From contig CM077644.1 in the NCBI GenBank assembly GCA_039707465.1, positions 142,935,962 to 142,999,961 of the forward strand: a DNA stretch of 64,000 nucleotides. Reading direction: 5' to 3'. The notes beneath the pieces are model-generated. The model saw only the letters and a list, made by a program, of their open reading frames with translations. It ran no database searches and was not told the origin of the DNA. Source of the stretch: Rhabdophis nuchalis (Eukaryota; Chordata; Lepidosauria; Squamata; Natricidae). Shown piece by piece: positions 52,401 to 61,400 of the stretch. Each line of letters begins with the position of its first letter. Within the stretch, counting starts at the first letter, position 1. A program made the translations under genes and the position numbers.

Positions 52401-55400
52401 AAAAAAGAGAGAAAGAGAAAGAAAGAAAAAGAAAGTGGGAGAGAGAGAGAAAGTAAGAGAGAGAGAAAGAAAGACAAACAGAAAAACAGAAAAAGAGACA
52501 AAGGAAAGAAAGAGAAAGAGAAAGAGGGAAAGAAAGAAAGAGACAGAAAGAGAAAGAAAGAGAGGGAGAGAGAAAGAGGGAAAGAGAAAGAGAGAAAGAG
52601 AAAGAAATAAAGAGAGAGAGAAAGAGGGAAAGAAAGAAAAAATGAGAGAGAAAGAAAAAGAGAAAGAGGGAGAGAAAGAGAAAGAAAGAGGGAAGGAAAG
52701 AAAGAGAGAGAGAGAGAAAGAGGGAAAGAGAAAGAGAAAGAAATAAAGAGAGAGAATGTAGAGTTATGGTAATAATGATACAAACTTGTTGATTAATAGA
52801 AACATTTGCTTTCTGTAACACACATATATTATGCCTTGTATTTGTAATGTAGATGCTTGCATGCTGTGGATTCCTTTGTGCCCCGGGGCTGATTTCCTGG
52901 GATCCTGTTATTGGGGTCTGTAAGATATCTGGCAAATGTCAAATCCTGTGATAAGATCTGAAATCTTCTCACCATGTGTGATGGGCAATTAAGCAAACAG
53001 AGAAGGGAAAAGATAACAAACTTTTTGAGCCAGGAAGGATGCAAATCTGAATTAAGATATATGATCCAAGTTTTACAATGTTAGGTTATATGACTTATGG
53101 TTTGACTTGAAGTTTACAATGTTGTTTAGAATGATTTAGAATAGCTAGAGTAATTAGAATCGAAGAACAAAGATCCTTTTGAAGATCAAACATCTTTTCG
53201 TGTATAAGAATGGACACTACACCCTTGAGTAGAGGGGTGGAGGGGTTTTAGGAGGGGGGTTGAGTAGTAGTTGAGTAGTTGAGTTTTGTAGAACTTTCCT
53301 ACCATGTCTCTTGTACATGTGTATGGAGATTTCTCACCCAGAACTTTAACTTTGATCAAAGAATAAAGTCTGTTTCTTTGTTTTCCAAGCCTCCGTTTAA
53401 GTCTTCTTTTGCTTCGTTTTTGGCTTAAGCGTTTCCCAAACCTTACATTTTTGGCGCCCAACGTGGGGCTCGAAGGCTTTTTTCTTCGAGGTAGCCGCTT
53501 TCGGCTTCCCACAAGCCGAACCCCTTTGAGGATCGGCAACGGCCTTCACAACGGTGGACGGAGAAAACTGACAGGGACCTGAGACGACGTCAAGAGCGCT
53601 CCCGGCCAAATTTGAGTCGGTGACCTCGGCCTGGTCATATGTTGGCAGACTCCGGTTCCATCCGGACCTGAACGCCAAAGAGGCTTGAAGCAGGGAGAGG
53701 GAAAATCGTACTCTCCTAGGTGAGTAAACATTTTTTAGGGGGGAGAAGGGTGTGTGTTGCCTTGTGAGTGCGTGAATGAGAGGAGGGAAATTCCTACTAG
53801 AGGATTGCCTTCAACCTGAGTGAGGAGATCTAATCTGCGTTTTGAGTAAGATCAGCCAGAAAGGATCGTGTTGAAAGGTGTGTGTTTGTTGGAATAAATA
53901 TAAAACTGTTTAATTGCAAGGGAGGGGGATCTGAGCAAACTCCGAGTCCGGTTGGGGTGACCCGAGAAATCCTTTAAAAAAGGAGAGTTTGTCAGATTCG
54001 AGCTTAGACAAAGCCCGAGAAACACTCCCGACTGATAAAGCCCCATAGAAACTCAGGGGACCGGGTTTTAACCAACTCAAACCCTACTGACAAAGCCCGA
54101 GAAATTCTTTGCAAAAAGGAGGGTCTTTGGCAAAGCTCCGAGCTGACGAGCCCGAGAAATTCTTTGCAAAAAGGAGGGTTTTGCCATGCCCCGAGCTTCT
54201 GTCAGGAAAAATCCCCTCAGAAAGAAACTCTTTAAAAGAGTCAGAGCCGTGTTCCCCTCTGGACTACATGTTGGCCCAAAGGGACACAGAAAAAACTCTC
54301 TGCACATCTATCTGACCACTCTGCTCTTAGTCCAACCTAAGAGTCTCCATACATTTTCATCTTTAAAACTACGCCAGCGTGCGCTGGGAGATGAAGATAG
54401 ATATGGACAAATTTGGATTTTTAAAACTATGCCAGCGCGGGCTGGGAAATCCAAATTTGGAACTGAACATCCCATGGCAGAGACAGATAGTAACGATCTA
54501 GTGCTTAAAGAGATTAAACAATGAGTGTAAACTTTGAGCAAAAGTAAGAAAATTCAGCAGGTAATAAAAGTTAAAGCCTGCCTGAATGAGAAGACCTAAA
54601 TAATTGGACTTGATTAATTTGATGTGAAGATTTAGATAATTTGACCTGATTGATTTGATGTAATTTCTGCCAAAATTATTGTGTGCATCTATACTAATAT
54701 GCAGAATTGAATGACATTGAATTGATTGTGATATGTTTGACCAGCTGGCAAAATAAGTAAACTTTTCACTTTATCCTTGAAGCTGTGGGAACGTGAGAGA
54801 AGTTAAGATTTAACTTCTGAATTCCCCCACTGTTTCAGGAATAAGCCACGGGTTCCCCAAGCAAATACACATTGAAGATTTAAAGGGACAGAGCCTCCCC
54901 ATGTCTGAAAATGTCTCATGATATGTGTGCATGTGTGTTCATTTCCAGACCTGGAAGGAAGTTGAAATCCTGTAATAATAAAAATTGAGCTCATTGGCTT
55001 TAATACAGGTCCTTGAAATAATTGTAATGATTGATTTGCATGAAGAAAGAGTGAAATGGGGTTTTTGTATGTGAAATTGGTTTACACAAACAGTTTGATT
55101 GTAGTGCAAATGTGAGTATGTTGATGGTGAAAGTTGGTGTGAATGTACTTTATTCTCTTTCCTATAAAGAAAGAGTAAGTTGCAAGGCTGTTTAATGGCG
55201 TATGGGGTGTGTGTGTGTTTCCAAATCTGAAAGGAGGGTGAGATCCTCTAATGCATGAACAAGCATCAACCTCTGATTGCAAGTATGAATGTGAGTCTCC
55301 TATACTCTAGGAAGTGATAAGTGAAAGAGATGTGGCCTGTGAGATTTCCCCCCCACCCCCACCTCTTCCCCCCTCTTCCCTCTGGGTTTTTCTTTGGAGG

Positions 55401-58400: not shown

Positions 58401-61400
58401 CTGAAATCTTCTCACCATGTGTGATGGGCAATTAAGCAAACAGAGAAGGGAAAAGATAACAAACTTTTTGAGCCAGGAAGGATGCAAATCTGAATTAAGA
58501 TATATGATCCAAGTTTTACAATGTTAGGTTATATGACTTATGGTTTGACTTGAAGTTTACAATGTTGTTTAGAATGATTTAGAATAGCTAGAGTAATTAG
58601 AATCGAAGAACAAAGATCCTTTTGAAGATCAAACATCTTTTCGTGTATAAGAATGGACACTACACCCTTGAGTAGAGGGGTGGAGGGGTTTTAGGAGGGG
58701 GGTTGAGTAGTAGTTGAGTAGTTGAGTTTTGTAGAACTTTCCTACCATGTCTCTTGTACATGTGTATGGAGATTTCTCACCCAGAACTTTAACTTTGATC
58801 AAAGAATAAAGTCTGTTTCTTTGTTTTCCAAGCCTCCGTTTAAGTCTTCTTTTGCTTCGTTTTTGGCTTAAGCGTTTCCCAAACCTTACAAGAGAAAGAG
58901 GGAAAGAAAGAAAAAATGAGAGAGAAAGAAAGAGAGAAAGAGGGAGAGAAAGAGAAAGAAAGAAAGAGAGAAAGAGAAAGAAATAAAGAGAGAGAAAGAG
59001 AAAGAAAGAGGGAAGGAAAGAAAGAGAGAGAGAGAGAGAGAGAGAGAACTTATGACCACAATTGAGCCCAAAAGTTTGGTTGCTAACCAAGACCATTGTT
59101 AAGTGAGTTTCACATTTTCCAAATTGGCCACGCCCACCCAGTCACATGACTGCTGAGCCACTCAGCCGGTCCGCAGAGTTTTCTTTAAAATGAAACCGGT
59201 CCCTGGTGCAAAAAAGGTTGGGGACCCCTGCTCTAGAGGAATGTGAGCCTCATTTTGGTCTTCAAGGAAAAGAGAGGGGAAAAAAGAATTGAAGATGGAT
59301 GTAAGAGGAGAAATCTCTCGAGAAATACGTCTGATATTTAAAGATAAACAATGTGTAAAGACAGAAACAGGGCAGCAGTATTATTTGAGAGACATACTGG
59401 ACAATAAAGTACGAAAATAAGTTTATAAGAAACCTGGAAAGAAGAATAAAAAGAAACTGGGGCCGCAAATGGCAACAGAGATAAGTCCAACTCGCTACTG
59501 GAAAGACACTGGCTGATAATGAAAGTTGCTATCCTTTGATGACTAGTAAGTAGATAGATTGTTTTAGATTATCATTGAAGGATTGTTAGTTAGTAAATAA
59601 TTATCTACAAATAAGAGTAACTAATAATAATGTTCTAGTTTAATGATATATATTTATGTATCTATGTACGTATAGGAATGCATGAGTATGAGGTTGGACA
59701 TAAACAATAAGACTTTTATTTAATCATGTAGGAATGTTGATGAATGTAGTTTAACAAAATAGGGGAGAATTTTAGCAAATTTTATACTGTTTTAGATATA
59801 TATATATGTGTGTATGTGTGTGTATGTATATATGCATGTATGTTTGGAATAGACAATGGATGCCATTATGTGGTTATGTTTAAGTAAGACTTGTCTGAAG
59901 AAGATAGACCAAATATGGAATATTAGAGGAGAATTCTGGTGTAATGATATTAAGATATATAATCAATCTTTTGATCTAAAATCTATAAAACAAGATTATT
60001 CATGAGTAATAATGGTTTTAGAAATGCACAAGAGTTATGTGTAACCAGTCAACATACTTTCCAAAGGGTACAATGTAGAATGATGATTTTTCCTTTTTGT
60101 ATTTTTGTTTTATTAAAAAATGAATACAATGTTTTCAAAAAACAAAACAAAACAGAAGAATGGAATAAGATGCATTATTTTACTTTAAATTAATCTCTCA
60201 TATTTTCTTGATCAGAACGAATCTCTCTATTGTACAATCTTAGACCTTTCAGAAACAAACTATACAATTCACAGGATGGCTTATCAAAACCATGAAAATT
60301 ATAGATTTGAAATGTAGGCTAACTACAACGAATTAAGATATGCCCTATAAGTGATGTGGAGAGGATTCTTTTTCTCGAGAAGGGTAAGAGTTGTCTTTTT
60401 TCTTTAACTGTACTGTACTTATTTTACATTTACACTACAATTTTCATGTCTTCCCCATCTTTAAACAGCAGGAAAAATTTGTGCAGAGGAAGAGTTTAGG
60501 CAAAAAAGCAAATTTTACACAAGTGACTTGCTTTGAATCTTTAAAAGAAAATTTCTATACACCTCATATAATTAATTGTGTTTTCAGCTTGTGAAATTCA
60601 CAGGGTTTGTAGCAGAAAGAAGGAATTTAAAATTTGCTGCAGTGAAAAATAAGGCCATTTACAAACCTTATTCAAATTATTTTGATAGATCTCATTCAGT
60701 TTCTTCACATAAGCATCACGCTTTTCTTTAATTATTCTACAGTAAAAAGAGTTTTATTAGTATTATATCCTACTTTACCCCAAGAAGCACATAATGTCCC
60801 TCTTTCAACATATCCCCACAAAAACAAACCTTTTGGGTAGGTTGGGCGGAGAGACAGCCCAATCCAAGTACTCAATGGATTTCCACAGATAAGCATAAAG
60901 TTGGGTTTGCCAAGCCTTACTCAAATTGTTATATTTGAGATGTAAATCTAGAAACTGCTTTCTAGATTTACATCTCAAATATCTATCTCTCTACAAACAG
61001 GATTAACACACAAAACGGTTTGCTCCAAATCTACATAGGTACCTTTTTCCTAAGTAATAAATAAAGATATTAGGGAGAAAATTATAGTCCTGTTTCACAA
61101 TTTAAAATGTTTTTCTTGAAGAAAAGATGCTTATACTATCCTATAGCACATTATACACCACAGAAAATAACATGTTTGCTATATCTAAAATAGCATTTTA
61201 AACAATGCAAATGATGTATCTCAATGTATACCACAGGGACCACTACTGTCAGAGCAAACCCTAATGTGTTAACTATTTATAGCAGGCTCAGAATTACATT
61301 CTGAGCATATATATACTGTTTTGAATTTTCACATGAGTCCCAGTCCAATCATGATTTATTAAAAGAATTTAAGAACAAAGCTCACATATATCTCAAAAAT

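Follow-up and report, generated by a model that had tools for sequence, protein, structure and literature searches.

A probable non-autonomous class I long terminal repeat element of recent insertion in the genome of Rhabdophis nuchalis

Structure of the element

The stretch of DNA analysed here, referred to as the window, comprises 64,000 nucleotides of the Rhabdophis nuchalis (Squamata; Natricidae) assembly GCA_039707465.1 (contig CM077644.1, positions 142,935,962 to 142,999,961, forward strand). At 52757..58890 it contains an element bounded by long terminal repeats (LTRs), which we regard, with a probability of about 0.88, as a recent copy of an LTR element that is non-autonomous and belongs to class I (gammaretrovirus-like). 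All parts of it are given for the plus strand. An earlier note, made from the letters of the window without database searches, had described the locus as a recently inserted LTR retroelement without protein-coding capacity.

The 5' LTR (52757..53447) and the 3' LTR (58200..58890) are both 691 bp long (TG...CA). They match in 691/691 bases at an offset of 5443, exactly as the earlier note had claimed; the exact repeated block is 694, since GAA stands before both LTRs. Within the LTR, a TATA-like sequence (53203..53209) and a putative AATAAA poly(A) signal (53362..53367) were read from the letters. The interior of 4,752 bp starts with a leader and 5' untranslated region (53448..54265), which is common to a coding relative in the same genome and ends just upstream of that relative's gag start. 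It carries the candidate primer binding site (PBS, 53452..53469), whose 18 letters we take to match a Lys-type tRNA and which recur in another copy of the element (L012) and in the coding relative L049. A splice-donor-like GT (53720..53721) occurs in the coding relative too. At the other end of the interior, a polypurine tract (PPT, 58189..58199) adjoins the 3' LTR; an identical PPT was found in 6/7 other paired copies. These signals lie where the earlier note had placed them. In the 5' untranslated region a 55-bp unit stands in tandem copies (54094-54197), which are also present in the coding relative and possibly are part of a packaging or dimer structure.

A passenger of roughly 3.9 kb stands where gag-pol-env would be. 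Its first part, non-coding passenger A (54266..56257), shows several weak internal repeats in a self-comparison of the interior and is present, with insertions and deletions, in seven other paired copies. It is followed by a fossil PPT (about 56260-56308) with the first part of a fossil LTR of the coding family (together 56258..56506), by the 3' end of a CR1-like long interspersed nuclear element (LINE) with a (TATTG)n tail (56507..56635), which is inserted in the fossil LTR, and by the second part of the fossil LTR (56636..56900, where 56900 is the end of the tested stretch). Non-coding region B (56901..58163) completes the passenger. Neither an Rfam scan and a tRNA scan of the window nor a search of phage records gave a match.

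Residual coding sequence in the interior

The longest plus-strand stop-to-stop frame wholly within the interior has 125 amino acids (aa). There are 72 stop-to-stop frames of at least 40 aa overlapping the interior; the 30 of them that were scanned against Pfam gave no retroviral family and four weak non-retroviral matches, all below cut-off. In addition, the interior was searched by tblastn with three query frames of the coding relative, namely gag, protease plus the start of reverse transcriptase (RT), and the 3' Env frame; later RT, RNase H and integrase were not among the queries. A stretch resembling the start of gag was found around the left junction at 54202-54312 (E 3.6e-4 when the interior is searched and 0.005 for the whole window). 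A second stretch, 57764-57901, is similar to the Env of the relative (39.6% over 48 aa, E 8e-5), and 0/200 shuffles reached this score. Region B therefore probably consists in part of a remnant of Env. With the protease plus RT-start frame as the query no residual pol was seen in the interior, and passenger A had no match to the sampled slices of coding relatives. The claim of the earlier note that gag, pro, RT and integrase frames are absent from the interior thus holds as far as frames are concerned (125 aa at most; 30/72 scanned), whereas short traces of the gag start and of Env do exist.

Copies of the element in the genome

The genome searched comprises 1.918 Gb in 348 contigs. With the LTR as the query at least 41 matches were obtained (best 40 of 1,624 candidates scored), with the interior piece 54560-56260 at least 54 (best 40 of 461 scored) and with 56840-58165 at least 44 (best 40 of 196 scored). 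Some places in the genome were counted as two or more matches.

Eight LTR-paired copies of the window type, window included, were compared. The paired LTRs differ at 1/5,300 aligned positions, to which one pair adds only 461 since its 3' LTR is truncated. Between the seven other pairs and the window LTR 20 variants were found, counted per pair, and 19/20 were common to both LTRs of the pair. The paired copies also carry private LTR variants. The variants shared within pairs indicate that one RNA was reverse-transcribed per insertion, which speaks against gene conversion and against duplication in the assembly. Like the window copy, the seven others have a non-coding interior, some with deletions; they lie in different, unrelated flanks. 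If neutral change is taken to proceed at 1-2 per billion sites per year, the LTR divergence would mean an average age of the compared copies of well under a million years. Older copies were also found: C21, C6 and C4:155 Mb show 5, 6 and 14 LTR-LTR mismatches, respectively, besides gaps.

Two loci show further rearrangements. In L013 the 3' LTR is without its first 230 bases, and the end of region B and the PPT are gone as well; the 4-bp target duplication is kept, and the loss is probably a later deletion. At C8:20949477-20977621 (genome G000; L040, L041) four family units are arranged head to tail with a spacing of about 8.17 kb. In the unit read, the LTR holds a 1.5-kb insertion with a 349-aa frame and an 8-base overlap at its ends, flanked as a hAT-type DNA transposon would leave it.

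Class I endogenous retroviruses (ERVs) as a rule duplicate 4 bp of their target, class II ERVs 6 bp. Target duplications were tabulated for 23 loci, i.e. the eight pairs and, out of 20 further loci, 15 that are presumed solo LTRs. Left out of the 20 were L020, L021 and L028, which are ends of pairs, the interrupted L029 and the truncated L032; other, later-found pairs were not tabulated. A direct repeat of exactly 4 bp is present at 17/23 loci, among them six of the seven other paired copies. No exact 4-bp repeat was found at L015, L022, L025, L030, L033 and the window. A target duplication of 4 bp, as read from these flanks, would be the one expected of class I.

Coding relatives in the same genome

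A genome search with the leader gave at least 40 matches (best 40 of 198 candidates scored). Among the matches listed, six had a leader identity of 90-100% and no match to the passenger in their vicinity, and three of these were sampled (L049, L050, L051). All three have the same LTR end as the window element, a leader 98.6-99.7% identical to its own and 86-92% identity over the 525 bp that follow, and all three diverge from it at 54265, which in L049 lies about 40 bases upstream of the gag start (read by eye).

The sampled relatives have retroviral frames. Gag_p30 was found in 3/3 (best 2.7e-34), Gag_MA in 3/3 and a zinc knuckle (zf-CCHC) in 2/3, the latter two all below cut-off. In L049 and L050 the frame after the gag stop continues in the same reading frame. 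Protease (RVP) was present in both L049 and L051, where the later frame was searched (4.5e-16 and 2e-16). The RT start of L049 matched RVT_1 at 1.1e-6, with 29.0 bits against a cut-off of 29.6 in a frame truncated by the slice; among solved structures, those of Moloney murine leukaemia virus (MMLV) RT come closest (2e-35). An Env-type frame at the 3' end (TLV_coat, 9.9e-9) was found at the one locus sampled for it. The LTRs of this locus are 680/680 identical and 9.1 kb apart, which indicates that the coding family has also been active recently. Since the matches of Gag, protease/RT start and Env are gammaretrovirus-like, the coding relative is, as assigned by domain matches and without a tree, a class I, gammaretrovirus-like retrovirus. 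Its LTR matches the window LTR at 226-457 (87%), at 523-691 (98.8%) and, over 20 bp, at 188-207. A 10-kb LTR pair at C1:212.07 Mb, at first suspected to be a further coding relative, was discarded; by its frame listing, made without a Pfam scan, the extra length looks like LINE frames.

A fossil LTR within the interior

The order of sequences in the middle of the interior is collinear with the 3' LTR: a PPT/U3-like part (56258-56447) is followed by the LINE 3' end and by a part resembling the next part of the LTR (56643-56900). When compared with the LTR, the two fossil stretches scored z 4.6 and 7.8, and six other interior stretches scored -1.4 to 2.4. Either fossil score was reached by 0/247 other window segments and 0/310 reversed segments. 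The coding relative provides a second line of comparison. Positions 56260-56308 match its PPT with 85.7% over 49 bp (E 2e-12). Between its LTR and the second fossil part the identity is 80% over 50 bp (E about 3e-8). We consider the match to the relative's PPT the clinching support for the fossil LTR.

The inserted LINE piece, presumably of the CR1 type, is 87% identical to window positions 46074-46180. It is present in 7/7 other paired copies (113-129 of 129 bp matched), as is the whole composite of fossil PPT-LTR and LINE. All eight paired copies have inherited this composite. As it is common to all copies compared, the mobile unit has taken up a decayed 3' end from the coding family that had already received a LINE insertion during its residence in host DNA.

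Recombination between copies

Different parts of the eight copies have diverged to a different extent. On average, two copies differ by 0.44% in the 5' LTR, by 1.28% in the leader, by 1.52%, 3.25% and 2.65% in A1, A2 and A3, by 3.10% and 1.38% in the two parts of the fossil LTR, by 3.17% in the LINE piece, and by 1.67% and 1.18% in B. Judging from the aligned sequences, the copies recombine: at 101 informative sites, 44.5% of site pairs are incompatible, and none of 1,000 permutations (0/1000) gave as much agreement between neighbouring informative sites.

Whole ends of the element have been exchanged as well. The C6 copy has LTRs 82% and 80.5% identical to those of the window and a leader at 73%, but its A1 is at 96.6% and its B at 96%. 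The C8 copy resembles it in having a window-like interior with different ends. In the C10 copy, which has another U5 end, the LTR is at 92%, the leader at 74% and A1 only at 88%. Two more copies bear the LTR type of the coding relative at 90-93%, and one of them also holds a piece of window-type U3. The occurrence of near-identical interiors on different LTR/leader modules indicates module swapping. On the left the module changes at about 53735-53741, i.e. 15-20 bases past the splice donor, and on the right at the U3 edge, with a resolution that is limited because the comparison blocks end at the same places. Template switching between co-packaged RNAs would be the simplest account of these swaps.

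Among copies with nearly the same LTR (L011-L017) there are three forms of the PBS. The window and L012 have one Lys-type form, L011 has another, and L013-L017 have an intermediate with an extra base. Perhaps the form of the PBS records which tRNA primed the last cycle.

Mode of propagation and alternative explanations

At the level of sequence, the paired copies show that a non-coding unit has recently and repeatedly been reverse-transcribed and integrated. We place the element among non-autonomous LTR retroelements because it combines a near-identical LTR pair, PBS and PPT with the lack of gag, pro, pol and env frames of its own, has dispersed copies with different flanks and target duplications, and shares its leader with a coding relative. 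Class I is indicated by the 4-bp duplication and by the relative's Gag_p30, RVP and TLV_coat matches, all above cut-off. The earlier note had spoken of a parasite moved by the proteins of another retrovirus. This reading as a recently inserted, non-coding parasite is supported by the identical LTRs, by the further copies with different flanks that the note had suggested looking for and the genome search found, and by coding relatives that have its LTR end and leader; in L049 the Lys-type primer site was read directly. Missed by the note were the 4-bp duplication, the putative class I helper, the fossil PPT-LTR with its LINE, the traces of the gag start and Env, and the likely module swapping.

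We infer that the element is moved in trans by the proteins of a helper. Its RNA would be transcribed from its own LTR and packaged through the leader shared with the coding relative. Gag and Pol of the coding relatives would then reverse-transcribe and integrate it, and template switching between co-packaged RNAs would replace the LTR/leader module. The likely starting point is an old, defective provirus in which the 3' LTR had decayed and ceased to terminate transcription. This provirus would have been fused to the 3' part of a related provirus (Env remnant, PPT and LTR), and the chimera would then have become mobile. A more far-reaching interpretation, to which we give somewhat less than even odds, is that the non-coding interior is a long-lived parasite that outlasts its helpers. 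It would repeatedly drop its LTR and leader and adopt those of the currently active retroviral lineage, with template switches at the U3 edge and shortly downstream of the splice donor, and the fossil 3' end of an earlier helper would testify to a past partnership.

Several observations weigh against our interpretation as a recent class I hitchhiker. The paired copies were picked as the best LTR matches, which favours young ones. L015 and four of the fifteen presumed solo LTRs are without a target duplication. At the window itself the 5' target-site flank AGAA (52753..52756) and the 3' flank AGAG (58891-58894) differ at one base; both lie inside a GA-rich array, where the 6-mer match of the flanks is prone to arise by chance (5%), and the empty-site alignment favours 4 duplicated bases only slightly (223, against 222, 220 and 216 for 3, 5 and 6). 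With regard to the fossil LTR, one unrelated interior stretch reached a z of 2.4, and nhmmer on the window alone gave weak matches (E 0.024 and 1.2), with no match in the reversed sequence. Finally, U3 of the relative fails to match the window LTR over its first 190-225 bp. The window LTR therefore did not come from precisely these sampled relatives.

The identity of the two LTRs could also be explained without a recent insertion. In favour of an old dead provirus whose LTRs were equalized by gene conversion, the interior is more diverged between copies than the LTRs (A2 and A3 compared with the 5' LTR) and includes a fossil LTR into which a LINE has inserted. However, conversion would need to act separately in every one of eight paired copies, which stand in different flanks, six with exact 4-bp duplications, and the sharing of 19/20 variants by both LTRs of a pair is what reverse transcription predicts. 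We therefore consider conversion very improbable. Some copies do lie in arrays or duplications, such as the four units on C8 and equal-scoring copies on C13, as an assembly artefact or a segmental duplication would produce them. Yet joining the window flanks restores the GA-rich target array, and the flanks of the seven other paired copies are unrelated, so that such an origin, which the earlier note had named as a possible objection, is hardly credible.

A different question is whether the mover belongs to the sampled relatives. The target duplication of foamy viruses is 4 bp. Their primer site is of the Lys type (in the consulted part of PMC6955096), so that the Lys-type PBS and the 4-bp duplication would also suit these viruses, and the differing start of U3 in the sampled relatives would fit a retrovirus of another class or an exogenous virus as the mover. 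This stands against the leader identity of 98.6-99.7% and the further 525 bp that the element has in common with relatives of gammaretrovirus-like Gag, protease/RT start and Env; we regard such a mover as improbable. A foamy (spuma) assignment in particular was rejected since the relative matches Gag_p30 and TLV_coat, a judgement made on the sampled relatives and not genome-wide. A class II reading, suggested by the Lys-type PBS and the apparent 6-bp duplication in the window, was ruled out by the 4 bp at 17/23 loci and by the class I relative.

Comparison with known elements

If moved by a class I helper, the element would work like VL30 and ETn of the mouse. Plant large retrotransposon derivatives (LARDs) have a large non-coding interior between their LTRs, too, and ride on Ty3/Gypsy-type elements. 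Unlike there, the relative here is a retrovirus with an Env frame. Mouse VL30, according to the sections consulted of PMC4859993, is non-autonomous, with identical LTRs in 42/86 copies, 4-bp target duplications in 76/86 and several primer types, and its RNA is packaged in murine leukaemia virus particles. Compared by description and not by sequence, the window element shares with VL30 its non-autonomy, identical LTRs, 4-bp duplications and several primer types. VL30, as described there, keeps stop-ridden gag- and pol-related regions and mostly has Gly-type primer sites (PMC4859993), whereas the window element has only traces of the gag start and Env, a Lys-type PBS and an embedded fossil LTR with a LINE piece. 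ETn, in the part consulted of PMC6466679, is an LTR element without coding capacity that holds traces of its likely progenitor, as is the case here, and is moved by the coding relative MusD. MusD, however, belongs to class II (same part of PMC6466679), in contrast to the class I relative and the 4-bp duplication in R. nuchalis.

Mammalian gammaretroviruses have been reported, in the consulted part of PMC6001957, to be nested within those of reptiles, and the coding relative fits into the broad group of reptile class I or gamma-like ERVs. The terms 'non-autonomous' and 'nonautonomous' have 0 occurrences in the main texts of PMC6001957 and PMC6050309. Among the matches listed in the literature searched, with most subscription journals outside its coverage, no squamate or reptile non-autonomous ERV family was named.

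VL30 and ETn, the hitchhikers compared, are from mice; here both partners are found in one other vertebrate genome. The copies are young enough that they may be polymorphic. Hitchhiking, the swapping of promoter and leader and a change of helper can be followed by sequence alone. The embedded fossil LTR with its LINE shows that debris formerly resident in host DNA can be carried by a retroviral RNA and kept over many insertions. This bears on how defective proviruses get recycled into active families.

Other features of the window

At the left edge of the window, and open towards it, lies a reading frame of a TEX15 homologue (3-3140; Pfam TEX15, E 1.3e-83). Positions 35360-40454 are occupied by a long LINE, presumably L1-like, with a frame giving weak coiled-coil-type matches, followed by endonuclease and RT frames that overlap around 37944-38089. 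On the minus strand, 41169-43562 holds a LINE frame of 797 aa (RVT_1, 1.5e-35), which we take to be CR1-like, and the frame at 62839-63549 (minus strand) reads like it, presumably being of the same CR1 type.

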